From Hygrocybe punicea (taxonomy: Eukaryota; Basidiomycota; Agaricomycetes; Agaricales; Hygrophoraceae): 64,000 nucleotides of DNA. Shown in pieces: positions 5,493-49,616 of the stretch. Numbering within the stretch: the first letter of the stretch is position 1; every line of letters begins with the position of its first letter. The stretch covers positions 4,836,001-4,900,000 of the forward strand of contig OY744464.1 of NCBI GenBank assembly GCA_963556145.1. Direction: 5' to 3'. Below the pieces are notes generated by a model, which saw only the letters and a program-made list of their open reading frames with translations, was not told the DNA's origin and did no database searches. Both the position numbers and the translations under genes were made by a program.

Positions 5493-5496
5493 GCGG

Positions 5497-9512: not shown

Positions 9513-9735
9513 TCCGGTCAGGACTCAGATAGAGACCATCCCTGGTCGATCCATACGAAATAACGAAGATACCGGGGTCGTGGAAATAAATGAGCGGAGG
9601 CGATGTCGAAAACGGGTGGAAACGATGGTACAACGTGAACAAGATCGAAGCTGGCGGGTATCGAAGCGTCGGGAAGCAGTGGTCCAGAGCTACTAAAAGA
9701 GGGTGGGGCGAAACGGCTGGATAAAGGAACAACGG

Positions 9736-10687: not shown

Positions 10688-10741
10688 TGTAGAGGGTCCT
10701 TGACCCTCTGAGGCCGTAACATCGATATCTAGCGAATCCGC

Positions 10742-15656: not shown

Positions 15657-15658
15657 GA

Positions 15659-16577: not shown

Positions 16578-16634
16578 CCGCTCGAACCCGATGTCTCTAG
16601 CAATCTACGCTCGAACCTGACGTAACCCGACGCA

Positions 16635-25257: not shown

Positions 25258-26655
25258 TTACAGGCGGCCGGTCTCGTAATCCTGCTTCAACATCGCCAAC
25301 CTTGAGGTCGACCGTTCGAGATCGACGCGAAGCCGCTGGAACTCTTGACCGAAGTGGACGAGGTGATGGTTGACGTTGGTGCCCAGGGCTCCCAGCTCCT
25401 CCGTAAGGACCGCTAGCCACGCCGACACTTGCTCGTAATTCTCCATCGTCAAAACGAACGGGTTCGCTGCCAAGGCCGTCCTAAGCCTTTTCGTCGGCCG
25501 CTCTTCCTCCGACTCCTCCTCATCTTTGTCATCGTCCTCGACCGACTCCACGTCCTCGACCCGCGGTTTGCTCGTTGAGGCCCGGGCAGGCCTACTGCGG
25601 ATGGGCTTTGTCGTGAACGACAACGGCTTCCTCGTGCCGACCGCGACCTCTTTGCCCTTTCCGGTATCCACCTTACGCCGACCCCCGCCCGTCCGGTGTG
25701 TAGCGTTAGTACATCTTTTCTTCAGCCTCCGGCATCATTCGCACACGTAGCCCGTGACGCCTCGACACGCCTCTTGAGCCTTGACGCAGTTGGTGCAGGG
25801 TTGTAGGGGAAACGGCCCGGTGAACTATTACCAGGATCAGTGACTAAAGAACAAAGGAACCGACACAGGAACTCACCGTCGTACCAGCCAGGTCTCCGGT
25901 CTCTACGCCCGGCATATCTACGTCTTCTACATCGGCCGGTGTCTCTGGTGCCGGGTCGACGGGGCCTTCCTCTGGCTCAACTGCGGCTTCGCCCTCCGGA
26001 ATCGACTCAGTCCTTGGTTCACCCGCGACCGATGCGTTTGCTTCAGCTCGCCGTTCTTCGCTGAGCCGCCGCTGATACGCGGCTCCATCCCTTTCAACCC
26101 GGTCCGCTTCTTGATTCCAGTGCTGCTCGTGTTGTTCTATTCTAAGCCGCTCCCGCCTTTCCTCTGCCGCCTTTCGCCTTTTCTCCGCCTCCGCTCGTGC
26201 ATTTGCCTCTGCCATCCGTCTGGCCTCCTCTTCCCGCGTAGCCACTTCTTCATCTGCCTGCCATCTGGCTTCTTCCTTTTCATGCCTCTCTCGGTCCGCC
26301 GCTTCTTTCAGCCACTCTTCGACATCGTTGGCGTACGATTGGCGGTCAGCCCATAACGGTGGCGTTACTGGCCTTGTACCACCAGCTCGGAGTTCCGCGA
26401 CGATTCCATTATAAGCACGCTGGCGGGACGACATGAGCTATCTTAGGACACGCGTAGTCAATCGGGAAAACTCACCAGCGCTTTCTTGCGGCCGCTCAAC
26501 CATTGTTGGGCCATCCCCTCGTTGCCGTCCACCATCGTTACGAGGTCGTCGCTATGAAACACGGTGACCGCGTTGACGGCCTCTTCATAGTCCGCCCGGA
26601 CATTGGGTTCGATGCTTTCGACGAAAGCGAGGAAGTTGTCGTAGACTTGGGACAT
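25258..26655 (-). pseudogene. A2 antisense accessory gene, Zn2Cys6-like and coiled coil
   Basis: Exons are 26476-26655, 25877-26419 and 25258-25800. Exon 1 encodes the helical domain (YDNFLAFVESIEPNVRADYE). Exon 2 encodes an Arg/Glu-rich coiled coil. Exon 3 encodes CX2CX6CX7CX2CX6C with a basic RRLKKR run before the last cysteine, then an acidic Glu/Asp stretch, KRLR, and a C-terminal helical segment. Two lesions are shared with A1: the third exon acceptor reads CTACAA instead of CTACAG, and a TGA (25735-25737) lies inside the zinc cluster. It converges on pol and its start faces the 3' LTR. Confidence 0.8.
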
Positions 26656-26740
26656 TGTGAGCGTGTGATGGTGTAGAGGAAAGGTCGGATCAACAAACGA
26701 GATTTTTTTTATTTTTTTTACTTTGCCGTTGTTTGGCCGC

Positions 26741-26748
26741 TCACGTGA
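26741..26748 (-). promoter_or_regulatory. TCACGTGA upstream of A2 accessory gene
   Basis: A palindromic E-box about 90 bp before the ATG at 26655. On the gene's strand, GGCCAAT (a CCAAT box) directly precedes it. Confidence 0.5.
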
Positions 26749-26826
26749 TTGGCCACATTTGCGACCCACGTTTGGAGACCCCATATTCTCGACCACAGAT
26801 GGTCTCTATTAGAAGACCCAAGGAGA

Positions 26827-27619
26827 TGTAGAGGGTCCTCGACCCTCTGAGGCCGTAACATCGATATCTAGCGAATCCGCTCGAACCCGACGTCTCTAGC
26901 AATCTACGCTCGAACCCGACGTAACCTGACGCAACCCGATGCATACCGACTAGCACGGCCGCTCACGTACCTGGTCGGTCTATCTCCTAAACTCACGGAA
27001 CTTCAAATATCAAAGATAGATCTCATCGGACTGGGATCCCGACATCGGACTTGCCTTATTCACGCCTAGCGTCTCCCTTATGGGGATATAGTAAAGTATA
27101 TTGCATCTTTTACGGTTTTTATATCTTCCACCCATTTTCCCTGTCATCATCGCCTCGCAACGCTCTTCCTACTTCCCCATTTTTATTCTCCTTTGTTTCC
27201 TCTCATCGGCTGAGGACTCTCGTCTGAATCTAGGTACAGAAATTTGTAGTATAAAAACGGTGCCCAAGCGCCGTCTCAAAATAAGAAACCAGTTCCCCCG
27301 TTTCCTCTCTCTGAGAATTAGTCTCTCAGTAAAATCCATCGCACACATTACTCGTCGGATTCCTCGACGCTCTCCCCGTCGTTCTACCGCCTTTATCTCT
27401 ACGTCCATCGTCACCCGACACCCGACCCGCCGTACCCGACATCGTCGGCTTCGTCGGCTTTGATCGGTCTCGATAGATTTCAGTAGTTTACTCAGCGGCT
27501 TCTTACCTTTTATATTCTATTATCTTACTGAAGCTTGTTAGACTATTCCTAGTCACTTCTACGCTGACCCCACAGGCCTAGGATTATTATTCCGCAGCCA
27601 CCCCGACCTCGCCTTTACA
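26827..27619 (+). repeat. A2 3' LTR
   Basis: 793 bp with TG...CA ends. The TATA box TATAAAAA at 27250-27257 is followed at once by a hairpin (ACGGTGC ... GCGCCGT). Confidence 0.95.
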
Positions 27620-27623
27620 ACGC

Positions 27624-27765
27624 AGAACCGAAGGGAAAGATTCCGGGGGTAAGTGATATCTCACGGACTCGTATATCCGTGGTGCCTAACTAATCCATAG
27701 TACATGCAGTCGTTCTGGATCCGGCAATGTGATGCGTGCGTGACCGCCAATGCAGTTTGTTGCGG
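27624..27765 (+). pseudogene. D1 accessory gene, part 2 (intron and first cysteines)
   Basis: Exon 2 ends at 27648. The intron 27649-27709 has GTAAGT, CTAAC and CAG. Exon 3 begins at 27710 and encodes CDAC and the third cysteine of the cluster. Solo B LTR interrupts it at 27766. Confidence 0.75.
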
Positions 27766-28699
27766 TGTAGAGGGTCGACGTCCCTCTGAGTCCGTATCAT
27801 CAATATATCACGAATCCGGACCAACCCGATGCCGCCATTCGACTTGCATTCGAACCCGACGTAACCCGACGCAACCCGACGTGACGTGACGTGACGTGAC
27901 CCGACGTGACCGACATAACCCGACGTATGCCGCTTCGTCACAGCCGCTCTCAGACAAATCCGGCAGCCTCAAACGCCTCGGAGTTCCAATTCCAGGAGAT
28001 GGATCTCTTCGGACTCAATCCCCGACTTCGGATTTACTTTATTTATGCATCCCATCGTCCTTTCGGCAATATGTAGGACTTTCTAGATCTTTTCCTTGCA
28101 TATTCGTTTTCCCCTCCATTTCCTGTCTTCGTTGCTTTGCAACCCCCCTTTCCACATCCCCATTCCAACCTTTCTTTGTAGCTTACCATCGGCCGAAGTA
28201 GACACGTCCGAAAGTAGATTACTGTTTCCTGTACTATAAAAACGGTCCCCGACGACCGTACAAAATAACATACCATTAGTCCCCGTTTCTCTCATAGTCA
28301 GAATTGTTTTAATCCCTTCAAATGCTTGTCCACGTAGTTCCTTAGCTTTTTATAGTTCACTTTGTCGACTTTATCATTGTTCCCGTATATTTGTTCATCG
28401 TTTCCGACCCGACCCGACCTGACCCGCCGTACCCGACATCGTCGGCATCGTCGTGTTCATTCGTTTTCAGTCCGTTCACCATCGGGTTCATCGTTATTAG
28501 TCCGTTTTCACTCCGTTCATCGCTGGATTTGTCATTACTAGTCGAGTTTATGCGGCGGCTTTACTTTTATTTCACTTTCACTTCACTTATTATCCCCGAC
28601 ACTGAATTATCCAGTCACTTCTACGCTGACACCCTCTGGTTAGGATCTTTATATATTTCTTTAATATAGTTCCGAAGCCACCAAGAACCCGCATCTACA
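27766..28699 (+). mobile_element. Solo LTR, family B
   Basis: 934 bp matching the B1 LTRs in the opposite orientation. TSD GCGG (27762-27765) and GCAG (28700-28703), one CpG transition apart. TATAAAAA at 28235 and a hairpin at 28242-28259. Confidence 0.9.
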
Positions 28700-28703
28700 G
28701 CAG

Positions 28704-28865
28704 AATTGAGGGGTATGCGTGCGATCGATGCAAAAGGCTTAAACGACGTTGCGGGTTATCGACAAAGGGACCGGCCACTGGATCCGGAAAAGCGGAAAGG
28801 AAAGGGAAGGTGAAGGCGGGTAGTCCAAAGAGGAAAATCGTCACGAAGAAAATACCAAAGCCCAT
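28704..28865 (+). pseudogene. D1 accessory gene, part 3 (second half of zinc cluster)
   Basis: It encodes YACDRCKRLKRRC, completing CX2CX6CX7CX2CX6C with part 2, followed by a Lys/Gly-rich basic region. E2 interrupts it. Confidence 0.75.
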
Positions 28866-29024
28866 TGGAGAGGTACCGAGGTACCTCTCCGGGGGCTCAC
28901 GCAGGACTCGAGGTGGAAGTCGACTGGATAGGATAGGAATGGGTCTCTCTACTACATCAGGAAGGCTACTAACTAGGTCAACCGTGGGAACCCAGTCACG
29001 TGACTGCCAGGTCCCACTACTCCA
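28866..29024 (-). repeat. E2 LTR (3', left)
   Basis: The palindrome at 28867-28890 has a compensatory change relative to E1. TCACGTGA at 28996-29003. Confidence 0.9.
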
Positions 29025-30612
29025 AGTGCCCCTTTTCCTCATGGCGACGCCCTCGTCGCCAACTGCTACAGAAAAGAACACAAAACAAACGAAACTGACC
29101 AAAAAACTCTAAAGCCACAACTCCCAGTCCCTCAGAAAGCCTTGACTCAAGGCCAGGGCCTTATATCGTGAAGCGGGAAGTCGTCCTCGCGCAGGGGGCG
29201 GTAGATGACCAGACTCTATAGAACTCCTCTCTCAAACTCAAACTCTCCGAATGCCTTCCTCGCGAGGGTTAGGGCTTACGACGCAAGATCCAAAATCGCT
29301 CGAATTGCTCTGGCAAGTACTCAGTGCAGCGTGCAAGTTCTGGTGATCGAAAACGTAATGGTGTTGGTGGAACTAGGTGAACAGGTGTATGAACAAGTGT
29401 AGTGACGGCTCGTAGGTAGACTTTAATCGACATCCAGAGGTGGGGGGGAACGGGGACGAGACTGTGATAAAAGCTATAATAAATGATAGGGCATAGGGTT
29501 GTACTAACGAGGGCATAGTATCTCGACGCGAAGGGGGTAGGTGTATCACGCGAAGGGATCGCAGCGGTTCGTTGGGTCGGCATGGGGTACATGGTGCCGT
29601 TGGGTTGTCCTTGGTAGTCACCACGGTCGAGAACGGGGCCACGGGGAGCTGAACGAGGGCTCGCGGGGCCGGGCATGGTGCAAGAAACCGGCCGGGGGGT
29701 GGTGACGTGGCGGAACGCGGTGGGGGTCTGGGGGCGGTGGGCACGGTCCGTTCGTGGTATTGGAGGCAGGTGGGGTGCTCTGGGATGGTGAACGGGTGGG
29801 CCGCGAGTGTCGTGAGTCGACCTGGGGCTGGCTATGTTGGCGGAACGGAGCCGCGCGATGGTGACGTGGCGCGGGGCTGGGGTGTCTGGAGGTGACGGCG
29901 GGGGTTCGTTTGGTGCAACGAAGGGGAACAGGGGGTCCTGGCCGGTGGAATGATGATGCCGGGAGTCGAATGAGTCCGTGTAGGGGTGGGGGTGACGAGA
30001 AACGGGGGTCTAAAAGTGGTGACGTGGCAGATCCGTGGGGTGACCAAAAGGGCGGGACGGCTTCGTTTGGGGCAATGAAGCGCGGTGGGGGGTTCTTCTG
30101 GGCAGGACGTAAGCACCGGGTCGTCGAGCGTGGATGTAGGGACCGAGATGGATACGTGTGGGGCCGGGGAATGCTAAAATATGGGGGGTCGAAAGGTGGT
30201 GACGCGGCTGTACGCGGGTGGCCGTTGGGCGTCAAAAATGGACGACGTGGGGCAGAACGGGGGCCGTAAGACGTCCAAGGAAGGCTTGAGAGGCCGTCCT
30301 GGGTCTGAGAAGAAAAAACCGGGTGTGGACGCGGGTGACGCGGCCTGGGGCTTTTGGGTGCTCGAAAAGGGTCGAGTCCGCGTCTCTGGGTCAACGATGG
30401 TCGACGCGGGGCCCTGGTGGACTGAGCGAGAGTGCCGGGGGGTAGCGCGATTGATGTACAGCTGTGAATGAAGAGAAAATCCGCCGTCGCACAGCAGGGG
30501 GTGGTGAGGCCGAAAAGAGTCGTCTCGCGAGAAAATCCAGCAAAGAAAGGCAAAAAGAGGAGAAAGTCCAGAAAAAGAAAGCAGTGAGTCGAAAACACTC
30601 TCATCACCACGA

Positions 30613-30771
30613 TGGAGAGGTACCGAGGTACCTCTCCGGGGGCTCACGCAGGACTCGAGGTGGAAGTCGACTGGATAGGATAGGAATGGGTCTCTCTACT
30701 ACATCAGGAAGGCTACTAACTAGGTCAACCGTGGGAACCCAGTCACGTGACTGCCAGGTCCCACTACTCCA
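30613..30771 (-). repeat. E2 LTR (5', right)
   Basis: By eye it is identical to the left LTR. Palindrome at 30614-30637 and TCACGTGA at 30743-30750. Confidence 0.9.
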
Positions 30772-32905
30772 CTGTGAGGAAGCCTAGGTTGCGGACCGGA
30801 GAGGCGTCGACGAGTAAGCGGACGTTGACTGACGTCGAACTGGATATGGAATCGGAGCGGGACGAAGGGAGACGAGGAAATCCGTTCAAGCACCCGCGGA
30901 TCGGAGTCGGAATCAATGACCACATCTGGGCAGTGCGCAAGATGGCGACGGAAACGCAGAGGGAGATATCGATGATCGCGGATGGCCTCTCGGAGTATGT
31001 TGCGGAGGTCCATTCGAAGCTAACCCGTTGGACGAAGGAGCTGAACCAACTACGCGCGAACCAAGCCCATATCTTTGGCCAACTTGACATGATTGACACA
31101 AAACTCGACGAAAGGAGAAGGGAGTAGAAGGGAAATGGACGGAAAAGGAGGGGAAACGAACCGCGGGACAATGTACATAAAAATAAAATGAGTACATAAT
31201 AAAATCTATAACGGAAAGGGAGAAACGGGTAACTACATAAGCCAGAATCTGGAGGTCGAGGTGGAGGGCGGGACCAGAATACAACGGACACGGAATGGGA
31301 TCGAAACAAACGGGAAACAAAGAAAACTATAAACGGAAACGAAAATATAAATAAGTGGAGGCCGGGAGCGTGAACGGAAAGCGGAACGGAGGACGAAAAC
31401 GCAAAAATGGGTGATGGAAACGGGTCTATATCCCCACAAGAGTTTCTGAAAGAAGGTCGGAGGCAGAACGATGAGAGGAGGCGGAGAACTTCTTGCAAAT
31501 ATTCGAGCGAGGTGTCGAGGGGGCGGAGGTCCAAAATGCGATCACAAAGTAGAATGAAGACGGAAACGAGGAATAATAAAATTTTGAGAACCGGAGTGCC
31601 GACACCAACACGATCCCATATAACGGGTGTGCCGCGTGACGGGTCTAAAAATGACAGGGTGCCCCAAGCGGGCGGAAACGACAAAGTGCCCCAAGTGGGC
31701 GAGGAGGGAACCAGATACGATACGGGAGCGGGAACGACGAGGGGAACTGGGAACGAAGGGGTCGACATAATGGAACCGGGACCGGAATCAAAATCAAATA
31801 AAAGGGGTGGATTGGGGTCCGGAATGGGAACGGGTACGGAATACTCAACCAAAGTCGACGGAATCTCGATAGACGGTGACGGAGGACAATATGGCGACAA
31901 TATCGGGGACGGAATGTCTATTTCTGGAGAATCCGAGGATAATGGGAGCAGGTCTGGTATGAGTTCGTGGACGGAAACCGGAGGGGTCGAATTTGGAGAC
32001 GACGTGGACGAAATAGGAAATGAAATGGATAAATCGGTGACCGGTATCGATAAATCGGGAGTGGGATTGGACGGGGATGACACGGGACTGGATGACAATA
32101 CCTGTAAACAAATGACAGTCTTGACAGGCACCGGAATAGACGGGTACGGAATATGTGATGAAGGGGATGGAGTATATGTAGGACCGGAATGAACGTGGGC
32201 GACGGAACGAACGACAGTGGGCGGGATCGAGGTCGGAATCGGGACCGGAGATGACAAAGCTATGACGGGTGGGGGACTGGGACCGGAATCGGGACTAGAG
32301 ATAGTAACGGCAAGGGAAGGGGATTTCGGAACAGAGCGACAACCGGAAAGCAGGAATAAGGCGGCATCGTGGAAAATGTCGAGCGGGTATGGATCGTCGT
32401 GGTAATGGTTGGGACGAAGGTAATGGAGGCATTCTTCAATACGTAGACGAAGGTCTGAGTCGAATCCGTTGGCGAAGTATGTGTTCCGTTGCTTAACCGA
32501 TAGACGGCTGTTGTCAAACAAGACACCGGAAATGCGTATGAAATCCCGGAAATATTGTCCTAAGTCCGCTTTGTTCTCTATACCGTAAGCCAATTGTCGT
32601 CGCATAAGTTGATCGAGATCCGAGATCGTATACCGGATGGAATCCGTAGCACCGGGATAAAAGTCGAAGACGGCACGTCGGAAAGCGATGAAGTCTTTAG
32701 CGGAAGCGGCGGGAAGTGTCGACCAGAGTTCGTGATCGTCGTTGTTGAGGTACCATAGCGTGTAGCGAATCTTCAAAGCGTCCGTGAGTCCACAATCGGA
32801 ACCGAGTATGTCGATTTCGTCGAAGAAGCGGGGGAGGTCGAGTTCGTTTCCGTCGAATGTCGGGGCTGAGGGATCACCTCGGAGAGGCATGAATCCGTAC
32901 GTCAT
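30764..32905 (-). CDS. gag: Gag of D1 with a long low-complexity tail
   Basis: The first ~215 residues are a Ty3-type Gag core (TFDGNELDLPRFFDE, YPGATDSIRYT, LGQYFRDFIRISG, PNHYHDDPY), clearly related to A and C Gag but diverged. The frame is open upstream of the ATG to about 32998. Beyond residue ~215 it is Ser/Pro/Val-rich, without zinc-knuckle cysteines. Its last part overlaps accessory exon 30776-31127 on the other strand and runs into E2, so only about 32260-32905 is securely Gag. No protease or pol follows; D1 relies on enzymes from elsewhere. 31128-32260 shows no other gene. Confidence 0.65.
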   Translation of the reverse strand: MTYGFMPLRGDPSAPTFDGNELDLPRFFDEIDILGSDCGLTDALKIRYTLWYLNNDDHELWSTLPAASAKDFIAFRRAVFDFYPGATDSIRYTISDLDQLMRRQLAYGIENKADLGQYFRDFIRISGVLFDNSRLSVKQRNTYFANGFDSDLRLRIEECLHYLRPNHYHDDPYPLDIFHDAALFLLSGCRSVPKSPSLAVTISSPDSGPSPPPVIALSSPVPIPTSIPPTVVRSVAHVHSGPTYTPSPSSHIPYPSIPVPVKTVICLQVLSSSPVSSPSNPTPDLSIPVTDLSISFPISSTSSPNSTPPVSVHELIPDLLPLSSDSPEIDIPSPILSPYCPPSPSIEIPSTLVEYSVPVPIPDPNPPLLFDFDSGPGSIMSTPSFPVPLVVPAPVSYLVPSSPTWGTLSFPPAWGTLSFLDPSRGTPVIWDRVGVGTPVLKILLFLVSVFILLCDRILDLRPLDTSLEYLQEVLRLLSSFCLRPSFRNSCGDIDPFPSPIFAFSSSVPLSVHAPGLHLFIFSFPFIVFFVSRLFRSHSVSVVFWSRPPPRPPDSGLCSYPFLPFRYRFYYVLILFLCTLSRGSFPLLFRPFPFYSLLLSSSFVSIMSSWPKIWAWFARSWFSSFVQRVSFEWTSATYSERPSAIIDISLCVSVAILRTAQMWSLIPTPIRGCLNGFPRLPSSRSDSISSSTSVNVRLLVDASPVRNLGFLTVE
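30776..31127 (+). pseudogene. D1 accessory gene, part 4 (C-terminal helices)
   Basis: It starts VRKPRLRTGEASTSK, matching the TRKP...RASTSK region of the A and C versions. An acidic stretch and a helical C-terminus (SEYVAEVHSKLTRWTKELNQ) follow. Stop at 31125-31127. It converges with D1 gag. Confidence 0.75.
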
Positions 32906-33079
32906 ATCGGGAATGTCTAAATCGGGATGCAGGTCGGAAAGTGGGTCGGGTCGAGGAGGTTCGAGGTCGAGGTCGAAGTCGTAAGTGGAACTAAATAACT
33001 AGAGTCAGGTAGAATAGGGAAACGTCATGAAAGTCAAAGCCAACCGTGGGGAGGGTATGAAAAGACAAAAGAAATAAAC

Positions 33080-33097
33080 TCCTCACGGTGGGCTCCA
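33080..33097 (-). other. Primer binding site of D1
   Basis: TGGAGCCCACCGTGAGGA on the minus strand, 2 nt from the 5' LTR at 33100. Confidence 0.8.
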
Positions 33098-33099
33098 GT

Positions 33100-34478: not shown

Positions 34479-34482
34479 TCGG

Positions 34483-35260
34483 GGTGGCTGCGGAACTGTA
34501 ATCCTAGCCTGGGGTAGTCAGCGTAGAAGTGACTGGGAATAGTTAGCAAGCTTCAGATAGATAATAAAAGGACTAATGGTAATAAGCCGCTGACTAAAAC
34601 TACTAAAATCTAACAATACCGACATATACTGACGATGCCAACGATGTTGGGTACGGCGGGTCAAGTGTGAGGTGTCGAGCGGTATAACGACAAAGACGGT
34701 AGAAGGACAGGGAGAGTGTCAAGCAAACCGACGAGTTAAAAGAGTAAGTGATTTTGGTAGGAGACAGATTCTGAGTGGGAGAAAGCAGGGGAACTGGTTT
34801 CCTATTCAGAGACAGTGCTTGGGCACCATTTTTATACTACAAATTTCTGTACCTAGATTCGGACGAGAGTCCTCGGCCGGCAAGAGGAAACAAAGGAGAA
34901 TAAAAATGGGGAAGTAGGAAGAGGGTTGCGAGGCGACCATGACAGGGAAAATGGGTGGAAGATATAAAAACCCATAAAAGATGTAATATACTTTACTATA
35001 TCTCCATAAGGGAGACGGTAGGTGCAAATAAGGCAAGTCCGATGTCAGGATCCCCGTCCGATGAGATCTATCTTCGATATTTGAAGTTCCATGACTTTAG
35101 GAGTTTGGACCATTGTGTATGCGAGCGGCCGTGCTAGTCAGTAAGCGTCGGGTTACGTCGGGTTTGAACGTGAGTCGTTGGAGGGGTCGGATTCGAGCGG
35201 GTTCGAGCGGATTCATAATAAATCGGGTTTCCTGTCTCAGAGGGTCGAGGGCCCTCTACA
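34483..35260 (-). repeat. C1 3' LTR, main part
   Basis: It matches 55552-56346. The first 17 bp are at 8915-8931, separated by D1. Confidence 0.9.
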
Positions 35261-35338
35261 TCTCCTTGGGTCTTCTAATAGAGACCATCCATGGTTGATA
35301 GTACGAGATCTTCAAACGCGGGGCGCGAATGTGGCTTA

Positions 35339-35346
35339 TCACGTGA
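35339..35346 (+). promoter_or_regulatory. TCACGTGA upstream of C1 accessory gene
   Basis: A palindromic E-box 108 bp before the ATG at 35447, in the same position relative to the LTR as in A1 and A2. Confidence 0.5.
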
Positions 35347-35446
35347 GCAGCCAAACAACAACAAAGTGAGAAAAACATAAAAAAAAATGCGTCATCGTTG
35401 ATCGGATTTTCTAACTTCATTTCAACACTCCACCTCGACTCACACA

Positions 35447-36770
35447 ATGGACAACAACTCCAATGCCTATCTCGCCTTTGTTAGAAGCATCGACCCTGAG
35501 ACTCGGGCGGACTACCAGGACGTGGTGGACCGAGTCGCCATGTTCCATAACGATGGGTTCGTGGGGATGGTCAAAGGCAAGGAAGGCGCAGCGTGGCAGT
35601 GGTTGATTGGTCATAGAAAGGTCATGGTGAGTTTTCCATCTGGAGAGAAGATCCTGTACGACTAACATTGCCCATCAGTGGGTATATAACGGGATGATGG
35701 CCGAGCTCAAAGATGTGGGCAAACATATAGCGACACCTCCTTTGTGGGAAGATTGGCAGGCGTACGCAGACACATTGGAGGAGTGGCTGATGGAGACAAC
35801 TGAGTGGGCTAGACGGGAGGAGGAAGAAGAAAAACGGTGGGTGGATGTGGAGGCAGTTGTGTGGGAAGAGGAGGCAAGACGGTTGGCGGGGGCACAGGCG
35901 CGAGCAGAGGTGGAGAAGCGGCGAGCGGCTGCAGAGGAGAGGCGGGAGAGGCTCAGGATGGAGAAGGAAGGGCAGCAGTGGAACCAGGAGGTGGACCGGG
36001 TTGAGAGGGAGGAAATCGAATATCGGCGACAGGTCAGCGAGGACTGACGGGCAGGAACAAATATCGCCAACACATCGACCACGGGTGAGCAGGACGTCAT
36101 ACCGGTGCCGGAGGGCGAAGTCACAGTCAGATTCAAAGAAGAGCCCGTCGAACCGGCACCAGAGCAACCGGCGGATCTAGGGGATGTGGAGATGCCTGGT
36201 GTGGAAATTGAGGACGTGGACGGAACGACTGTAAGTCTCTTTTGTTGAGTATCTATTCTTAACCATTGAGCGTCGTAAAAGTTTACCGGACCGTTTCCTC
36301 TACAGCCATGCACAAATTGCATCAAAGCTCAAGAGGCATGCCGAGGTGTGACCGGATACGTTTGCGAGCGGTGTCAAAAGTTGAAGAAGAAATGTACCAA
36401 TGCAACTCATCGGACGGGTGGGGGACAACGCAAGGCGGACACTGGGAAGGGAAAAGCAGTAGCGGGTACGAGGAAACTGCTTTCATTTACCACCAAAACG
36501 ATCCGGACGAGATCCACTCGGGCATCGACAAGTAAGTGGCTGATCGAAGAGGTGGAGTCGGACTCAGAGGATGAGGAAGAAGAGATGGCTGAGGAGCGGC
36601 CGACGAAAAGGCCTAGGGCAGATTCCGAAGGAAACCTGTTCGACGGGGCGATAGAGAGTTTCGGAAGCGTCTCCGCACGACTCACCACGCTGACGGAGGA
36701 GCTGGGAACCCTAGGTGCCGAGGTGAACTGGCATCTGATCCATTACAGCCAATGCCTCCAAAGGCTTTGA
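35447..36770 (+). pseudogene. C1 antisense accessory gene, Zn2Cys6-like and coiled coil
   Basis: Exon 1 is 35447-35626. An intron with GTGAGT and ATCAG occupies 35627-35678. Exon 2 runs from 35679 to GTAAGT at ~36232. Exon 3 begins after CTCTACAG at ~36304. Domains are in the same order as in A2. The zinc cluster is intact (CTNCIKAQEAC then GYVCERCQKLKKKC, 36308-36392). KRPR follows an acidic run, and a C-terminal helical pattern reads SARLTTLTEELGTLG. A TGA at about 36046 breaks exon 2 where the sister genes are open, most simply a CGA to TGA change. This copy keeps a good third exon acceptor, unlike A1 and A2. It converges on pol. Confidence 0.8.
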
Positions 36771-37041
36771 ATCGATCACGAGCAGGTGTTGGCAATGTTA
36801 GTTTTGATGAGGCGAGATTACGAGTTCAGCTGTCTCTAAAAATGTATATACAAAATTGTGTCCGTGTAAATAAAATGAAAAGATTTTTTGTATATATATA
36901 AAAGACATTTTCAGCATGTTCACCCAGCTAAGAAAAGCCAATGGCTCCCGAAGACATGGGACTCTTCGCATCATTTGTCGCAAGAAAAGAAAGAAATGCT
37001 AAGTATAGAGATATAAAATGGACAAGATAAGATAAAAATGC

Positions 37042-40000
37042 CTAATCATCGTCGGCTGAGGAGTCTATAGAGAGTGGATACATCGGATCACCGAGATCGC
37101 TTGAGTCGGTATCATCGGCATCGGGGTATTGTAGAAAATTGTCCAATGGTATCGATATCTTCGAACAGGCATAGTAGGGTACGACTCGGAAAGCGGCATA
37201 TCGGGATTTAGAGACTGCACCGTCGAGTTCGGCTAGTATGTACGACCCGCCAAGAGTTTTCCTGACTACAATCATGGGTCCAAAGTATCGCGGCTTGGCT
37301 TTTTGATTGAGAGACATTTCAATACAGGAATTCCGGACGAGGATGAGGTTGCCAGGTTCGAAGTCAAAGGTTTTGATTGTGTTGGCGTACTTTTCTTCAA
37401 ATTGTCAGGCGGACACGAGCCGAGACTTGGTGAGCTTTTCTTTGACCTGATTGAGGTCGGCTTCTCGTTTATGAAGTTGGCAGGCGCGGATGACTATGAG
37501 GTTGGTCGTGGACATCGTATCTTGTGTCGGAACCTTGTACGTGGCTTCGGCAAAGTTGAATGGAAAAAGTGGCTCTACTTTGTGTGCGATGTAGTAGGAG
37601 GAGTATCTGAGGTTCTTGTGTGTGGTGACCCGTTCAGCCCAAAATACGGAGTGGGTTACAGTATGCCATTTCTTTTCATCTCCGTCACAACTTTTCATGA
37701 TGGCGTCCCGGACATCTAGGTGGCGATGCTCAACGGGTCTGTTTGCTTGTGAGTTATAGGGCGAAATGCAGATGTGCTGGATACCGTAGCGGGAGGCGAG
37801 ATAGTCGAGTGCTTCTATGAATGGCTTGCCATTGTTGTTAACGATTTCTTCGAGAGCGCCCCAATTGCATAAGATGTCTTCAAATAGGAATGTGCCAATG
37901 GTCGAGCCGGTCTCGCAGTGTAGCATTCGGAACTTGGGATAAGTGGAGAGGGAGCAATGGGCTTGGACAATGTACCAGTAGCCGCCGGATCATGGCATAA
38001 ACATCATGTCAACGTATGCTTTGCGGAATAGTGAGGTCGGTGTAGCGACGGTCGGCGGAATGTGGTGATAACACATTTGGCGTACTTGGCACTGATGACA
38101 AGACTGGACGTACCACTTAATGTTGTGGTCGAGGTGCGGCCACCAGAAACGATTGAGCAGCCAGGCACGGATGGAGAATATACCTTTGTGGCCAAGAGAG
38201 TCATGAGCATCTTTGAGTAACTGAAGCTGGCGGTCGGGCGGTATGACGAGTTTGTGTTTTCCGTTGATATGGTTTCCACGTCTATAACCCCAGATAAAGA
38301 GATAATAAAAGATGAAAACGTCGCAAAGGTGTGAACGGGACTTGGGACACTCCCGACAATAACGCGATAATGTGCGATAATATGCGCGATCAAATAAACA
38401 AACATGGAGGGTCGCGAGATAACGCGATATCGCAACGCAGTGATAAACAAGAATCGGAAGGCTTAGCTGGGTGTCCTAGATGACAGCGCGATACGCAGCG
38501 ATGACGTGACGAGACGAGGGTTCTACGCTGCGACTTGGGTCGCGATAGCGGAGAGTGCGCAACGAGAAAAGATGCAGATTGGAGTAGGAATGACTGGATT
38601 TTTAAACTTAAGACGCAAACTAGTGGGGAGGGGAGAACTGGGTTCTTCCTCCTTTATTTTCTACTACAGGACACTTTTTATATTCTAAAGGAATAGGGGG
38701 AAAGGGTGGATGAGTGAAATAGAAATGCAGCGAAATATCGCATGAAAGTGACGAAACGGAAATGGAATAGCGAAGGATTTGAAATAACGGCGAATATCAC
38801 ATGAAAGTTGGCAAAAAGACGAAGATAAACTGGATGAATTACACTTCTGGTATCGGACTCGGTGTCCGAACATGTAGGACGTGTTTAACGGTCGTGTTTC
38901 AGCGTATTGAGACCGGGTTGCGCGGTTAAGATACAGCGAAAATGTCGCAGTCACGTGCGCATTGATCAGCGTAAGTCGCGCAAGTCGTGGGCGGCGCGCT
39001 GATGTTTCGCATGTATGTGGGACGCGGAAGAGTTGTAGGGAAAGTAGAATTGGAACCTATGAGAGATTCCATGCCCAAAGGGAGAGACTGCGTATCACTG
39101 TGACGGTCTTTGTGCCAAAGCTTGTTATCGGTGATGAAGAACTCAAGGGAGTATCTCAGGAACAGACGGTACTCGTCATCTGCGAGGTTCGTGGGTCGGG
39201 TTAGATCTCGTAACCAAGTCTTGACGAGGGCAAGATGAGTGTCAGCCACGCAGGCTTTATTGGATCATGGTATGTCAGAAACGGCTTCCTGATTTGTGTA
39301 GATGAGGACAGCGGGTAACTCGTGGAGTTGGTCAGCTGTGGCATGGCAGCAGCTGCATACGGCAATTGGCTTAGATGGCGTGGGGACGGGTCTGTAGTTA
39401 ACGACTTCCATAAAGAAACCATAAGAGTGGTCGAGCCAATCATCGGAGTCGTTGATCTCCTCGGGGTCTTCTGCAGTGCGGGGACGTCTGGAGAGTCCGT
39501 CGGGTGCACCTTGTGCGGAAGCGGGTATGTGAACGAGTCTAAAATCAAATAAGAGCACGCCGGCTATCCATCGGTTGATCGTTGCATTGGGCTGAATGTC
39601 GGAGCATCCCTTTTATGTACTTCACGTCAACTTTGACAGTGAGGTTGCAGATGCCGATAATGAAAATCCGGTAGGCACGGAGGGCCCTGAAGAGACTGTA
39701 AAGCTTGAGCTTGGACTGGGAGTATTGGGCTTCGCACTCGTTCCAAGATATTGAACCGAATTGATTTGGGTATCGTTTTCCATCGGCACGGATTTGCATG
39801 AGAACGAAGCCGACTCCAAGGACGGAAGAATCAATGGCGAGAATGACCTCCCATTCACGTGTGTAATTGATAATGTGCAGCGCTGGCGATGAAATGACAG
39901 CATTTTTGAGGTAGTCGACGGCGGTCTCTTCTTCTTCACCAAATTCGAAGGGTATACCTTTGCGGGTAAGACGGACGAGGGGTCAGGAGTGGAGTGAGAA

Positions 40001-41550
40001 GTCCTTGATAAAAATACGCAAGATGCCGCAGATACCGAGAAAGGCACGAACTTCGGTGAGGTTGGTCGGCAGTGGCCAATCACGAATCTTCTGTACTTTG
40101 GAGTTGTCGGCTACTCTTCCTTCATATGTGCATCGGTGGCCAACAACAATGACTGAGGGTCAACACAACTCGAGTTTCTTGCTGTTGAAGGTACCGCCGA
40201 CATAGCGGAAATGCTGGATGACGCGGTTGACACCTTGGAAGTGCTCCCAAATGAAACATCGGATTGCTGGGTTCTTGGGTATGGTCTCATAGGTACCGTT
40301 GGGTTGCTTGTAGCGGGTTGGAGGCCCTTTGATGGGAATGTCGTCCATATACGGAATGGCAAGGTGTGGGATTTCATCATGGAGGATGTATGTGGAGTCA
40401 CCGTGTAAGATCTGCAGGGAATTTGTGTATCCCATAGCGATCCACGTAAGTCGAAGCATTCCGAGTGGAGACTGAAACGTCATATAGTCCCAAGACGAGG
40501 GGTGGACGAGGGGTTGGTCAAAAGAGACGAAGAGGTCGAAGGAAGCGTAGCAAGAGTAGCCGCCCAAGGCCTTGGCCAAGTGCTCGGTCATGGGCGGTAT
40601 GGTGGGATCGTGGATCGTGATGGCGTTAAGCGGCTGTAGATCGTGGACGATTCGAAGGGACTTCCCATCCTTTTTCAAAATGCAAAACCAGCGGGAGCGG
40701 TATGAGGAATTCAAGGGTTCATAGGTGCCGGTGTTGATTTTGTCTTTGATGATTCCGATGACTTCATTAAGTATACCGGGAGGGATCGGGATATTTCGAT
40801 GGACCCACGGGTCATGGGGAACGGTGGGAATGTGGATTGGCGGGAAGTAGTCCGTGTTGAACTGGCCTTTCTCGGATTTGTTCCAGGCAAAAGCGGCTTC
40901 TTGCATTTTGATGATATGGTGGCTGATTTTCTCTTCCTCAGGCCAAAGGAATCCATCCAGGTTCATCGGCATCGCGTCATGTCGTTCCTGGGTGTAGCGG
41001 GTGCCGGGTGTAAAGTCAGGCAGGTGTGTCGGGAGCATGGGTAAGTCGGCTAGCGGGTTGCCGGTGATCTCACGTATGATCCGGTATTGGTCGGGTAGAG
41101 TAGTAGAAATTGGGCGGATGCGATTGGCTACCTTTTTGTACTTCTTTTTGGTGATGACACCTTTTAGGTCCCTGGTAGGGGGGGTTGTATACAAGATATA
41201 AACAGCTTGTTTAGTGGAGGCGCTGTTACAAACATTTGAAGGGGAAATAGATGAAGCGGAGGCAGAAACGGAACAAGAGGAAGGAAGGGTATCGGTAGTA
41301 CATATCTGATTTTGTACATCGGTCAACAAAGAGATATACTGCGCGGCAGTCTGAGGCTGAGATGAGGAGAAATCTAGATCGATGGAAAAACATAAGTCCT
41401 CTTCTAAGGGAAATGGCAAAAGGGAAGAATAGTTCGTGGTATACGTGTGGTCGCTTTCGAGTGGCGGCTTCTCATCTCCTGGTGCGTCCTTCCCGAGAGG
41501 TATCTCCGGGTCCTCGACTTCTAAAAATCCAGTTTCCCGGTGTCGGACTG
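37042..41550 (-). pseudogene. pol: Pol of C1, interrupted and decayed
   Basis: On the minus strand RT (41419 to 40160, with YMDD near 40345), RNase H (about 40083 to 39545) and integrase (HDSLGHKG near 38200, NNNGKPF near 37840, and the GPM segment near 37270) are recognisable. Several stops break it, for example TGA near 40157 where A2 has CGA. Solo LTR G splits it at 38265-39097. The second integrase motif reads NNNGKP where A2 has TDNGKP, so a catalytic Asp is lost as well. Confidence 0.85.
38265..39097. mobile_element. Solo LTR, family G, inside C1 pol
   Basis: 833 bp with TG...CA ends. TSD CCGT (38261-38264) and CTGT (39098-39101). It is rich in CGCGATA-like motifs and has no coding capacity. 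Removing it rejoins the pol frame at KDRH-GKHKLV, as in A2. Confidence 0.8.
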
Positions 41551-42708
41551 TTCTCGTCGGTTCTTCTGGTTGTGCTCGATGGTGGGTAAGGTGACGATGG
41601 CGCCAGTGTTTGGATCCGTGATTGTGACTTGTTGATCCCCGTTTTTGTAATCCTTCGTGAGGGCCTTGGAAAGCGTGAAGAAGGGGTGGCCGATGAGGAT
41701 CTCGTAGGGGGCGTCATCGATGACTTGGACTTGGAGGAAAAGATCGACATCGCCGAAGGTAAATTTGAGATTGGTGATCCGGCCGAGGGTATCGTTGTCA
41801 CTCTTGTTTGCCAACTGCATCTGCATCTTCATGTTCTGAAGGCCGTAACCGAGTTTTTCCCAAATGTTGCGTCACATACCGATGATCATGGAGCCGTTGT
41901 CGAGGACGCACTCGAATATGAATTTGCCGTTGATGAGCAGGTAGACCACATGGAGAGGGACTGAGTCATGGCCGACGACGAGTGGGAGGTTTTCCTGACA
42001 ATGTTGACAGGCATGAGTGGGGATTTCGGGTGCGTGGAAGTGAAAGACTTCCACGTTGTTGGTCTCAGCGGTGACCTTTTTCGAGGTGGTGAGATCTTTC
42101 ATGTGATGGCGAGCATCGGACGACATGGCCAGGAGTTCTCGTTGCAAAATGCAAACTTGAGAATTGAGAGCATGGTCAATGACAGATTTAGCGATACCGG
42201 GATCTTCAATAGGAGCCTGGTAGCGGTATTGGGGGTGCGACGTGGGAAGGTTCTGGGGAGTGCGTGGCATGAAGGTGGTCGGCTCGGTCAGCTGCGTATT
42301 TGAAGGTGGAACGATGGTGATCGGGTGCTCATTGACAGGTCTGGTAGACATTTTCTCGGCCAGTTTCATGACAGGTACGGATGTAGAGGTGGCGGGCGGG
42401 TTAGGGTATGACTCTCTGGACTTTCCTTTCGCTTTAGAGGGGATCTCTACACCGTCAAATCTAACCCATTTATGAAGCCACTGCACTTCAGCTTCCAGAA
42501 CCTTAATTTGTTCGTTGTCGTTGTCGATGTCGGACGTCGTGGACTGAAAGATGTCGGCGTACTCGGTGGTGACCTCAGGTTCATAAGTCAGTACTTCGAC
42601 AGTGGAGACAAAGTTAGTTTTGACATGAGGCGGTGGGTTGCGTTGGAACGGTTCTGTGGGGTTACAGGCAGGGGGAGCGTGGTTGCCGGGGTTCTGTGTG
42701 TGCCACGC
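41521..42708 (-). pseudogene. Gag C-terminus and protease of C1
   Basis: It encodes the linker and a retropepsin-like domain (VLDNGSM near 41905), with the same GGATTTTTAG junction to pol as A2. A TGA near 41873 breaks it. It continues to the right at 43610 after removing solo LTR B. Confidence 0.8.
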
Positions 42709-43605
42709 TGTAGAGGGTCGACGTCCCTCTGAGTCCATATCATTGATATATCACGAATCCGGACCAACCCGATGCCGCCATTCAACTTGCATTCGAACCC
42801 GATGTAACCCGATGTGACCCGACGTGACGTGACCCGACGTGACCGACATAACCCGACACATGCCACTTTGTGACGGCCGCTTTTGGGCTAAATCCGGCAG
42901 CCTCAAACGCCTCGGAGTTCCAATTCCAGGAGATGGATCTCTTTGGACTCAATCCCCGACTTCGGATTTACCTTATTTATGCATCCCCTCGTCCTTTCGG
43001 AGATATGTAGGACTTTTTAGATCTTTTTCTTGCATATTCGTTTTCCCCTCCATATTCCTGTCTTCGTTGCTTTGCAACCCCCCTTTCCACATCCCCATTC
43101 CATCTTTTCTTTGTAGTATCTATCGGCTGAAGTAGACATGTCCGAAAGTAGATTACTGTTTCCTGTACTATAAAAACGGTCCCCGACAACCGTACAAAAA
43201 AAGATACCATTAGTCCCCGTTTCCCTTTAGTCAGAATCGCCTTTTAATCCCTTCAAATGCTCGTCCACGTAGACCCTTAGCTTTTTATAGTCCTCTTCAT
43301 CGTTTTTATTGTTGTTTCCATATATTTGTTCATTGTTTCTGACCCGACCCGACCTGACCCGCCGTACCCAACATTGTCGGCTTCATCGGGTTCTTCATTA
43401 TTTGTCCGTTTTCACTCCGTTCATCGCCGGATTCGTCATTATTAGTCCAGTTTTACGCGGCAGCTTTACTTTTACTAACATTCCCTTCCTTTTACTACTA
43501 TTCCCGACACTGACTTATCCACCGTCACTTCTACGCTGACACCCCTCTGGTTAGGATCTTTATTTCTTTATATTGTTCCAAAGCCACCAAGAACCCGCAT
43601 CTACA
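42709..43605 (+). mobile_element. Solo LTR, family B, inside C1 gag-protease
   Basis: 897 bp. TSD ACGC (42705-42708) and ACAC (43606-43609). A1 has the uninterrupted site GCCACGCGTCGAAG. Confidence 0.9.
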
Positions 43606-43609
43606 ACAC

Positions 43610-43745
43610 GTCAAAGCGATCCTTCATATTTTTGCCGACGATAGCCTTTGGAAGATACATTCTGTTAGGCAACACGATGTGGCCGTGCTCGTTCTTGCGG
43701 CATATTCCATCTCGAGTGTACTGCTCGCAGATGGGACAATCGCGT
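43610..43745 (-). pseudogene. C1 Gag fragment with zinc-binding cysteines
   Basis: It encodes DCPICEQYTRDGIC and the following 30 residues. Solo LTR D was inserted between Arg and the first Asp here. The upstream half of the motif (NCLFCNDPFHRIR) is at 53390-53430. Confidence 0.8.
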
Positions 43746-43833
43746 TGTAGAGGCTCCGGGCTGTCTGGACCCGAATCCTCTTCATATCCCACATCGTCCC
43801 CGTCCATTCCCATTCATGTATCGTCGATTCCGC

Positions 43834-44625
43834 TGTAAAGGCGAGGTCGGGGTGGCTGCGGAATAATAATCCTAAGCCTGTGGGGTCAGCGTAGAAGTGA
43901 CTAGGAATAGTCTAACAAGCTTCAGTAAGATAATAGGATATAAAAGGTAAGAAGCCGCCGAGTAAACTACTGAAATCTATCGAGACCGGTCGAAGCCAAC
44001 GAAGCCGACGATGTCGGGTACGGCGGGTCGGGTGTTGGGTGACGATGGACGTAGAGATAAAGGCGGTAGAACGATGGGGAGAGCGTCGAGGAATCCAACG
44101 AGTAATGTGTGCGATGGATTTTACTGAGAGACTAATTCTCAGAGAGAGGAAACGGGGGAACTGGTTTCTTATTTTGAGACGGCGCTTGGGCACCGTTTTT
44201 ATACTACAAATTTCTGTACCTAGATTCGGACGAGAGTCCTCAGCCGATGAGAGGAAACAAGGAGAATAAAAATGGGGAAGTAGGAAGAGCATTGCGAGGC
44301 GACGATGACAGGGAAAATGGGTGGAAGATATAAAAACCGTAAAAGATGCAATATACTTTACTATATCCCCATAAGGGAGACACTAGGCGTGAATAAGGCA
44401 AGTCCGATGTCGGGATCCCAGTCCGATGAGATCTATCTTTGATATTTGAAGTTCCGTGAGTTTAGGAGATAGACCGACCAGGTACGTGAGCGGCCGTGCT
44501 AGTCGGTATGCATCGGGTTGCGTCAGGTTACGTCGGGTTCGAGCGTAGATTGCTAGAGATGTCGGGTTCGAGCGGATTCGCTAGATATCGATGTTACGGC
44601 CTCAGAGGGTCGAGGACCCTCTACA
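43834..44625 (-). repeat. A1 3' LTR
   Basis: 792 bp with TG...CA ends. The flanking AGAAGACCCAAGGAGA (minus strand) is a likely polypurine tract. Confidence 0.95.
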
Positions 44626-44703
44626 TCTCCTTGGGTCTTCTAATAGAGACCATCTGTGGTTGAGAATATGGGGTCTCCAAATGTGGGTCGCAAATGTGGC
44701 CAA

Positions 44704-44711
44704 TCACGTGA
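44704..44711 (+). promoter_or_regulatory. TCACGTGA upstream of A1 accessory gene
   Basis: It lies 93 bp before the ATG at 44797, directly after a CCAAT box (GGCCAAT). Confidence 0.5.
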
Positions 44712-44796
44712 GCGGCCAAACAACGGCAAAGTAAAAAAAATAATAAAAATCTCGTTTGTTGATCCGACCTTTCCTCTACACCATCACACGCTCACA

Positions 44797-46185
44797 ATGT
44801 CCCAAGTCTACGACAACTTCCTCGCTTTCGTCGAAAGCATCGAACCCGATGTCCGGGCGGACTACGAAGAGGCCGTCAACGCGGTCACCGTGTTTCATAG
44901 CGACGACCTCGTAACGATGGTGGACGGCAACGAGGGGATGGCCCAACAATGGTTGAGCGGCCGCAAGAAAGCGCTGGTGAGTTTTCCCGATTGACTACGC
45001 GTGTCCTAAGATAGCTCATGTCGTCCCGCCAGCGTGCTTATAATGGAATCGTCGCGGAACTCCGAGCTGGTGGTACAAGGCCAGTAACGCCACCGTTATG
45101 GGCTGACCGCCAATCGTACGCCAACAATGTCGAAGAGTGGCTGAAAGAAGCGGCGGACCGAGAGAGGCATGAAAAGGAAGAAGCCAGATGGCAGGCAGAT
45201 GAAGAAGTGGCTACGCGGGAAGAGGAGGCCAGACGGATGGCAGAGGCAAATGCACGAGCGGAGGCGGAGAAAAGGCAAAAGGCGGCAGAGGAAAGGCGGG
45301 AGCGGCTTAGAATAGAACAACACGAGCAACACTGGAATCAAGAAGTGGACCGGGTTGAAAGGGATGGAGCCACGTATCGGCGGCGGCTCAGCGAAGAACG
45401 GCGAGCTGAAGCCAACGCGGGTGAACCAAGGACTGAGTCGATTCCGGAAGGCGAAGCCGCAGTTGAGCCAGAGGAAGGCCCCGTCGACCCGGCACCAGAG
45501 ACACCGGCCGATGTAGAAGACGTAGATACGCCGGGCGTAGAGACCGGAGACCTGGCTGGTACGACGGTGAGTTCTTGTGTCGGTTCCTTTGTTCTTTAGT
45601 CACTGATCCTGGTAATAGTTCACCGGGCTGTTTCCCCTACAACCCTGCACCAACTGCATCAAGGCGCAAGAGGCGTGTTGAGGCGTCACGGGCTACGTGT
45701 GCGAATGATGCCGGAGGCTGAAGAAGAGATGTACTAACGCTACACACCGGACGGGCGGGGGTCGGCGCAAGGTGGATACCGGAAAGGGCAAGGAGGTCGC
45801 GGTCGGCACGAGGAAGCCGCTGTTGTTCACGACAAAGCCCATCCGCAGTAGGCCTGCCCGGGCCTCAACGAGCAAACCGTGGGTCGAGGAGGTGGAGTCG
45901 GTCGAGGACGATGACGAAGACGAGGAGGAGTCGGAGGAAGAGCGGCCGACGAAAAGGCTTAGGACGGCCTCGGCAGCGAACCCGTTCGTTTTGACGATGG
46001 AGAATTACGAGCAAGTGTCGGCGCGGCTAGCGGTCCTTACGGAGGAGCTGGGAGCCCTGGGCACCAACGTCAACCGTCACCTCGTCCACTTCGGTCAAGA
46101 GTTCCAGCGGCTTCGCGTCGATCTCAAACGGTCGACCTCAAGGTTGGCGATGTTGAAGCGGGATTACGAGACCGGCCGCCTGTAA
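44797..46185 (+). pseudogene. A1 antisense accessory gene
   Basis: Exons are 44797-44976, 45033-45566 and 45643-46185, with the domain order described for A2. Exon 2 lacks three codons relative to A2. The third acceptor reads CTACAA, as in A2. Two TGA codons lie in the zinc cluster: one shared with A2 (45706-45708) and one private (45679-45681, where A2 and C1 have CGA). The cysteine spacing is otherwise unchanged. It converges on A1 pol. Confidence 0.8.
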
Positions 46186-49300: not shown

Positions 49301-49616
49301 TCGAAGAAGAAATATGTGACGCAGGAGCGGAGACGGAACAAGACGAAGGAAGGGTATCGGTAGTACGTAGCTGATTTTGTACATCGGTCAACAATGAAAT
49401 GTACTGGGCGGCAGTCTGAGGCTGAGACGAAGAGAAATCTAAATCGATAGAAAAACATAAGTCCTCTTCTAGGGGAAACGGCAAAAGGGAAGCATAGTTC
49501 GTGGTATAGGTGTGGTCGCTTTCGAGTGGCGGCTTCTCATCTCCCGGTGCGTCCTTTCCGAGAGGTATCTCCGGGTCCTCGACTTCTAAAAATCCGGCTT
49601 TCCGGTGTCGGACCGC
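46394..49616 (-). pseudogene. pol: Pol of A1, internally deleted
   Basis: RT is intact from 49484 and includes YMDD near 48410. RNase H is broken by TGA at about 47790 (A2 has CGA). Near 47547-47556 the sequence jumps from the end of RNase H (GAPDGLS) to the integrase zinc motif (GHKGIF), removing about 458 bp present in A2. The integrase core is complete from there on (VTDNGKPF near 47190, NGPVERRH near 47085), then GPM. The deletion also shifts the frame. Confidence 0.9.

Follow-up and report, generated by a model that had tools for sequence, protein, structure and literature searches.

An antisense gene with a six-cysteine cluster in Ty3/Gypsy-type elements of Hygrocybe punicea, possibly encoding a regulator of the element's own LTR

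What does a gene on the strand opposite to gag-pol do for a fungal retrotransposon? The question is raised by a 64,000-nucleotide stretch of Hygrocybe punicea DNA (GenBank assembly GCA_963556145.1, contig OY744464.1, positions 4,836,001 to 4,900,000, forward strand), the whole of which is called the window here. The genome comprises 92 Mb in 42 contigs, and the window is filled with nested long terminal repeat (LTR) elements: A1, A2, C1, D1 and gene-less B elements. An earlier note on this DNA had described, in families A, C and D, a three-exon gene opposite to gag-pol and just inside the 3' LTR. In this study, we analyzed that gene in the window and across the genome. We give a probability of about one half to the reading that it is a true, selected retrotransposon gene encoding a DNA-binding regulator of the element's own LTR.

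The three-exon structure was borne out in all three families. The A1 gene runs from an ATG at 44797 to a stop at 46185, and the A2 gene from an ATG at 26655 to a stop at 25258 on the minus strand. The C1 gene begins at 35447 and has its homologous end at 36839; the D1 gene begins at 9851, stops at 31127 and is split by nested insertions. The ends given earlier were correct for A1, A2 and D1, but the end given for C1, 36770, is a premature TGA. Re-derived exon lengths were 180/534/567 nt in A, 180/552/558 nt in C and 171/642/579 nt in D. Both introns are 49-56 nt long, GT-AG and in phase 0, and they occupy matching positions in A, C and D, as had been claimed. The window copies consist of the following parts.

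44797..44976, plus strand: A1 exon 1
45033..45566, plus strand: A1 exon 2, Arg/Glu-rich and coiled-coil-like by eye
45619..46185, plus strand: A1 exon 3, with the cysteine cluster at 45646 holding two TGA, and the C-terminal helix
26476..26655, minus strand: A2 exon 1 (locus L001; window position computed from exon lengths)
25877..26419, minus strand: A2 exon 2 (L001; position computed)
25258..25824, minus strand: A2 exon 3, one TGA in the cluster
35447..35626, plus strand: C1 exon 1
35679..36230, plus strand: C1 exon 2, one stop
36282..36839, plus strand: C1 exon 3, whose cluster CTNCIKAQEACRGVTGYVCERCQKLKKKC at 36309 is intact, with a premature TGA at 36768-36770
9851..10021, plus strand: D1 exon 1, one stop (locus L039)
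10071..10695, plus strand: D1 exon 2, cut by nested insertions
28707..28865, plus strand: D1 exon 3 fragment carrying the cluster's second half; its left boundary is approximate
30772..31127, plus strand: end of D1 exon 3

None of the four window copies carries an intact gene. A1 has two TGA codons inside the cluster, A2 has one in the cluster, and C1 has two stops. D1 has a stop in exon 1 and an insertion, and its cluster is reduced to the second half.

We then turned to the copies in the rest of the genome. A/C-type exon 3 gave 487 candidates, and 130 of the best 150, which were scored, were stop-free within the match. D-type exon 3 gave 502 candidates, with 104 of the best 150 stop-free. 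Both scored sets consist of the best-scoring matches and are therefore biased toward intact copies. A complete stop-free three-exon frame was found in 33 of 68 loci taken with their flanks (20 A, 13 D, no C); these loci, three window copies among them, are the best matches genome-wide, so this share is not a genome-wide rate. LTR sequence lay upstream of the gene in 60 of the 68 loci and was not seen in eight; for loci found via exon 3, the sequence covered reached only about 670 bp ahead of the ATG. In 35 of 38 A/C-type loci, and in all four loci of a further family, E, the gene is followed by pol on the other strand; pol on the same strand as the gene was not seen among these loci. One locus, L010, had neither LTR nor pol within 1.5 kb. 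Judged from these loci, homologues in this genome are mostly linked to LTRs rather than stand-alone. These results support the conclusion that the antisense gene belongs to the elements. The LTRs and pol genes of the window copies are as follows.

43830..44625, minus strand: A1 3' LTR, 171 bp from the antisense ATG
26827..27622, plus strand: A2 3' LTR
34479..35260, minus strand: C1 3' LTR, about 187 bp from the antisense ATG
8932..9517, minus strand: D1 3' LTR, about 334 bp from the antisense ATG
21303..25049, plus strand: A2 pol (RNase H domain, then integrase)
46394..49709, minus strand: A1 pol, in two open pieces

A1 and A2 are two copies of one family, with LTRs of about 796 bp. In A2 pol, RNase H models match at 569-688 and an integrase zinc domain follows from 849, which is the Ty3/Gypsy order. 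The earlier note set the gene opposite to gag-pol in all three families, but the D element has gag and, in the copies examined, no pol.

Selection on the gene was assessed by pairwise ratios of nonsynonymous to synonymous divergence (dN/dS; Nei-Gojobori method, NG86). The ratio was 0.31 within A, 0.29 within D, 0.26 between D and diverged D copies, 0.29 between A and L019, and 0.17 between A and C1. The set contained 51 of the 68 loci (26 A, 1 C, 24 D), including L068 despite its abnormal exon lengths. Stop codons were skipped, and pairs without differences were omitted (297 of 300 pairs within A). The 17 other loci were excluded for a length that breaks the frame, a missing start codon or at least three stops. 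In the true frame, A1 against C1 gave a dN of 0.273, a dS of 1.735 and a ratio of 0.158, with two premature stops per copy skipped. The control ratios were 1.49 and 1.51 in the forward-shifted frames and 1.27, 0.28 and 1.65 in the reverse frames, with 5-17 stops per copy, and the introns of A1 and C1 were 46% and 57% identical. A chance open frame was rejected by these frame controls. Constraint from a gene on the other strand was also rejected, since A2 pol ends at 25049, short of the antisense gene at 25258, and the reverse frames hold 5-17 stops per copy. With ratios of 0.17-0.31, rather than near 1, the gene is under purifying selection.

We also counted base changes against the majority base in 25 A and 17 D copies (loci L001-L057). 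At codon positions one, two and three, CpG transitions roughly tracked the CpG bases (A 62/62/70 of 93/92/111; D 115/118/177 of 112/98/128), while the other changes were concentrated at position three (A 46/41/166; D 128/61/344). Nine of the ten new stops counted in decayed copies were CGA to TGA. Because CpG changes follow availability and the others favor the third position, we conclude that selection preserves the protein in replicating lineages, and that inserted copies decay in the manner of methylated DNA. The CGA-to-TGA stops are a sign of CpG methylation decay in this genome, or of a process resembling repeat-induced point mutation.

These data bear on whether antisense RNA, not a protein, could be the active product, as double-stranded RNA for silencing or by transcriptional interference. 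Such action has been proposed for antisense transcripts of elements, as stated in excerpts of PMC7264820. However, the dN/dS values, the frame controls, the 33 of 68 intact frames and the conserved introns and cysteines indicate that protein coding is kept. An RNA role is thus strongly disfavored, and we regard it as very unlikely.

The A and D proteins are homologous at 25% identity (BLASTP E 2e-22), with a dN of 0.79 and saturated dS. The exon layout and cluster are common to A, C and D, in line with the earlier claim that the C and D proteins are diverged yet keep one architecture. The full-length A protein gave no match at E <= 1 among 5.8 billion proteins, a search in which coiled-coil words perhaps crowd out other matches, and a single exon 3 gave no match either. 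A profile of seven exon-3 sequences, on the other hand, retrieved three metagenome proteins, P0001-P0003 (E 6.6e-80, 1.8e-69 and 1.3e-42). The most distant, P0003, led to family E, which lies outside the window in this genome. The gene stands opposite to pol in 4/4 E copies examined, and where E pol could be matched to A pol the two share 65-70% identity. The same cysteine cluster is present in E, and L074, read by eye, shows both introns at matching places and an LTR-type edge before the leader. In or next to one E element, a long open frame on the minus strand (L072:3916-8001) resembles a Helitron/PIF1-type helicase by eye.

The protein consists of an N-terminal part, an Arg/Glu-rich middle, the cysteine cluster and a long predicted C-terminal helix. 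The cluster spacing is CX2CX6CX7CX2CX6C in A, C, D, E and P0001-P0003. The Zn2Cys6 domain (PF00172) has the pattern CX2CX6CX5-12CX2CX6-8C, which this spacing fits. In five clusters, the first CX6C loop has 0-1 Lys/Arg and the second 4-5; in Gal4, the first loop has 4 and the second 1. In A, C, D and P0001-P0003, the similarity to the Pfam Zn_clus model is confined to the cluster's second half, which matches the opening half of the canonical domain. The earlier label of a Gal4-like, Zn(II)2Cys6-type cluster is therefore apt for the cysteine spacing, but not for the Pfam score, which is below threshold, or for the basic loop, which is swapped. The cluster may be a diverged or rearranged Zn2Cys6 member, or a convergent one. 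A genome scan with PF00172 gave 59 matches and, by eye, none at any listed A/C- or D-type exon-3 place; because the gene falls below the Zn_clus cut-off, domain annotation may miss it. A sequence search of the PDB gave no significant zinc-cluster match (AlcR had E 0.44 with the D protein and 2.1 with the A protein, for which tau chains ranked first). AlphaFold predicts one long C-terminal helix, with blocks of predicted local distance difference test (pLDDT) values of 78-98, about 80 residues behind the cluster.

The introns and the Zn_clus-like second half suggest a host origin: a single ancestor might have taken up a transcription-factor gene of the host, which has since been a functionless passenger. 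However, it is common to at least four deeply diverged lineages (A-D dN 0.79, dS saturated) and is still under purifying selection, and no stand-alone copy was found among the 68 loci, save L010. Passive carriage of a captured gene is disfavored by the dN/dS values and seems extremely unlikely.

If the protein binds DNA, candidate sites are found in the same elements. CACGTGA, nearly always as TCACGTGA, was found upstream of the ATG in 57 of the 61 leaders of A, C and D in which exon 1 was mapped, 88-115 bp before the ATG in copies with a listed place. In 4/4 E copies, CACGTG lies 323 bp before exon 2. In the gene-side last 200 bp of five pooled LTRs, CGGGTT was the top enriched hexamer, with 17 occurrences against 0.76 expected (A 3, C 4, D 0, E 5, B 5). 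The CGGRTT count of each of seven LTR sequences was reached in 0-14 of 1000 shuffles, the E "LTR" being a 598-bp piece whose outer end was guessed. We examined 59 LTR edges, and at least two CGGRTT were present at 27/27 A and 2/2 C edges. The commonest spacing was exactly 10 bp (70 of 99 listed A spacings, 6 of 10 in C). Arrays of CGG-type sites are present in the LTRs of A, B, C and E, and weakly in those of D. According to excerpts of PMC5559640, a Zn2Cys6 dimer typically binds a pair of CGG triplets and has a coiled coil downstream of the cluster. The sites in the window are the following.

44704..44711, no strand: TCACGTGA palindrome in the A1 leader, also at 35339 (C1), 9736 (D1) and 26741 (A2)
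44514..44578, plus strand: array of 4 CGGRTT sites in the A1 LTR, with starts lying 111 to 52 bp from the gene-side edge
35149..35229, plus strand: CGGRTT array in the C1 LTR, 6 sites

Two other elements of the window, at 5494-7908 and 28866-30771, have identical or near-identical ends of about 160 bp, also with TCACGTGA.

The element might instead encode a regulator of host genes that does not act on its own LTR, as host promoters may hold CGGRTT-like sites. Against this, CGGRTT occurs at 9.1 per kb in the seven LTR sequences and at 1.4 per kb elsewhere in the window, a roughly sixfold difference. We consider regulation of host genes to be quite unlikely.

Several observations speak against an LTR regulator. 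CGGRTT was picked after inspection of the LTRs; an unguided ranking of the gene-side 200 bp puts CGGGTT first, but over whole LTRs TCGGGT ranks first. The A, B and C LTRs are related and thus not independent. D LTR edges have a mean of 0.87 CGGRTT and reach two or more in only 3 of 30, CGGGTT is absent from the last 200 bp of the D1 LTR, and D shows CCGGATTC instead, which was first spotted by eye. B elements have a CGG array but no recognizable antisense gene. TCACGTGA also occurs in other repeats of the window and so may be a host-factor site. On the protein side, the Zn_clus scores were 15.3 bits for C1, 14.0 for A, 12.4 for D and 14.1/11.5/9.6 for P0001-P0003, against a cut-off of 21; the E protein gave no Zn_clus match at E up to 5, and the AlphaFold models are of low confidence over the cluster.

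In the regulator reading, which we retain at the even odds given above, the parts of the protein would be an N-terminal domain, an Arg/Glu-rich coiled-coil-like stretch, a six-cysteine cluster of the two-zinc type, binding zinc and basic in its second loop, and a long C-terminal helix. The gene would probably have a promoter of its own in the stretch from the 3' LTR to the ATG, which holds a conserved TCACGTGA-type site, and its transcript would be spliced on the antisense strand. The product would enter the nucleus and most likely bind the CGG-type arrays in the element's own LTRs. Binding at the 5' LTR would tune gag-pol transcription, up or down, and binding at the 3' LTR its own transcription. 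The action would resemble that of HBZ of human T-cell leukemia virus type 1 (HTLV-1), which is encoded on the antisense strand and reduces expression driven by the LTR of the virus (PMC10186651). In both cases the gene is antisense at the 3' LTR and encodes a DNA-binding-type domain; HBZ transcripts are spliced, and action on the LTR is proposed for the fungal gene. HBZ differs in that it is a bZIP protein without the cysteine cluster and unrelated.

Between lineages, the antisense gene has diverged far more than pol. The dS of A2-C1 pol was 0.25 in the reverse transcriptase part and 0.45 in the integrase part, and that of the A1-C1 antisense gene was 1.74; between A1 gag and the gag ascribed to C1 it was 0.54. 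In a comparison of 15 chosen loci, L012 pol is near A (dS 0.18-0.21) and far from L017-L019 (0.45-0.52), whereas its exon 3 is far from A (0.74-0.78) and near L017-L019 (0.20-0.27). These values mark L012 clearly as a recombinant. Trees of pol (15/16 loci; the L014 cluster was not found) and of exon 3 (with three D loci added) disagree on L012 likewise, although some pol branches are modestly supported. Between A and E (L026-L071), amino-acid identity was 73% at the integrase end and 31% in exon 3. Inside a lineage, the gene and pol have diverged to about the same extent (for example, dS ratio 0.90 for L014-L009 and 0.81 for L018-L019), so exchange of old modules accounts for the between-lineage excess better than speed alone.

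The D element was examined for pol. L069 combines a gag frame with the antisense gene, and its LTRs are 98.8% alike over the 322 bp compared. Comparison with A and E pol gave nothing at E up to 1e-3 in L069 or in three D1 pieces, and nothing in six D loci within 1.5 kb of flank each. Five D copies lie in tandem on contig C35 (1850986-1869127) with an exact period of 4334 bp, which is too short for pol besides gag and the antisense gene. The D gag core is 47-48% identical to A gag, and the ratio of nonsynonymous to synonymous differences per site (pN/pS) between the D1 and L069 gag cores was 0.32. This evidence for gag comes from D1, L069 and a gag piece beside the tandem copy L059.

31886..32998, minus strand: D1 gag, which shares 48% identity with A2 gag in its core; the D1 element gave no match to pol

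D "gag" matches in the scan of the 68 loci were not counted, because they map to the far portion of the D1 stop-to-stop frame and overlap the antisense gene in part. The D1 gag frame is open for 744 aa (window 30764-32998, minus strand) and extends into antisense exon 3; it is interrupted in L069, and its openness is perhaps due to chance. D elements would borrow pol and keep gag and the antisense gene, a pattern to be expected of two products that both work on the RNA or DNA of their own element.

The protein could also serve the element other than by LTR control, guiding the pre-integration complex or the integration site or blocking host silencing, with the cluster binding chromatin or RNA. 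Between lineages, exon 3 retains less identity than pol (66-71% vs 86-92% for the A-C1, A-L012 and A-L019 pairs) and modules have been exchanged, both of which suit host conflict, and D retains gag and the antisense gene without pol. On the other hand, within lineages the gene does not clearly outpace pol, and the CGG arrays beside the gene and the Zn2Cys6-type spacing would be coincidence. We consider such a role possible, though rather improbable. A fuller version of the LTR-regulator reading joins all these features: a fungal clade would carry an antisense zinc-cluster transcription factor with a reversed basic half that reads helically spaced CGG arrays in the LTR, a convergent counterpart of HBZ; its modules would be swapped between lineages, and pol-less elements would keep gag and the regulator as the two parts that recognize their own nucleic acid. 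This whole is put forward tentatively, and we would be somewhat surprised if every part of it held.

Antisense genes of Gypsy elements are known from plants and from one fungal lineage. In plants, antisense open reading frames (ORFs) between pol and the 3' LTR include Grande gene23, RIRE2 and Retand TRP28 (excerpts of PMC7264820 and PMC11963269). Their function is given as unknown in the former, and DNA binding is predicted for Retand TRP28 proteins in the latter. As far as these excerpts describe them, the plant ORFs resemble the fungal gene in place, orientation and occurrence in most copies of a family; some are nuclear or predicted to bind DNA, and some Retand carriers are non-autonomous. 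The fungal gene, unlike them, has a six-cysteine cluster, two conserved introns and candidate LTR sites. It also lacks a match to Transposase_28 (PF04195): none was found at E up to 5 in a D protein, an N-terminal piece of A type, exon 3 of C1 and of A, the frame from E or P0001-P0003. Fungal Zn2Cys6 transcription factors (PF00172; Gal4, AlcR) are similar in their six-cysteine spacing, the long helix predicted after the cluster and the CGG-type candidate sites, whereas the present gene has a sub-cut-off Pfam score, a basic second rather than first loop and a separate N-terminal domain.

The earlier suggestion of a distinct system in fungal elements has to be narrowed, as an antisense gene at this position was already known in fungi: brtn, which Boty-like elements carry in Botrytis and Sclerotinia (Zhao et al. 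2011, Virology, as cited in excerpts of PMC7264820, PMC8365987 and PMC4227169). The comparison with brtn is by description only, and these descriptions mention no cysteine cluster. In openly licensed literature (CC0, BY or BY-SA; titles and starts of abstracts), we found no fungal element gene with this cluster, which does not imply that none is published. Within that literature, we believe that the novelty lies in the cysteine cluster, the conservation of the introns, the arrays in the LTRs, the exchange of modules and the gene's retention by a fungal element without pol. The question of function is directly testable here, since the protein has a recognizable cluster of DNA-binding type, intact copies are numerous, selection has been measured and the element itself holds candidate target sites. 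If true, the regulator reading would show self-regulation of a fungal element, and how a pol-less element riding on others keeps specificity.

Two other parts of the window were recorded. The B element at 10742-16581 has LTRs 99% alike and an interior of about 4 kb. It was rejected as a fourth carrier of the antisense gene, since neither the cysteine cluster nor a recognizable antisense gene was found in that interior. The B LTR has the densest CGGRTT set among the A-like LTRs, and the B element may depend on the regulator of other elements. Finally, a frame at 2215-2934 on the minus strand resembles a Tc1/mariner-type transposase by eye and adjoins 334-bp inverted arms at 2964-3681.

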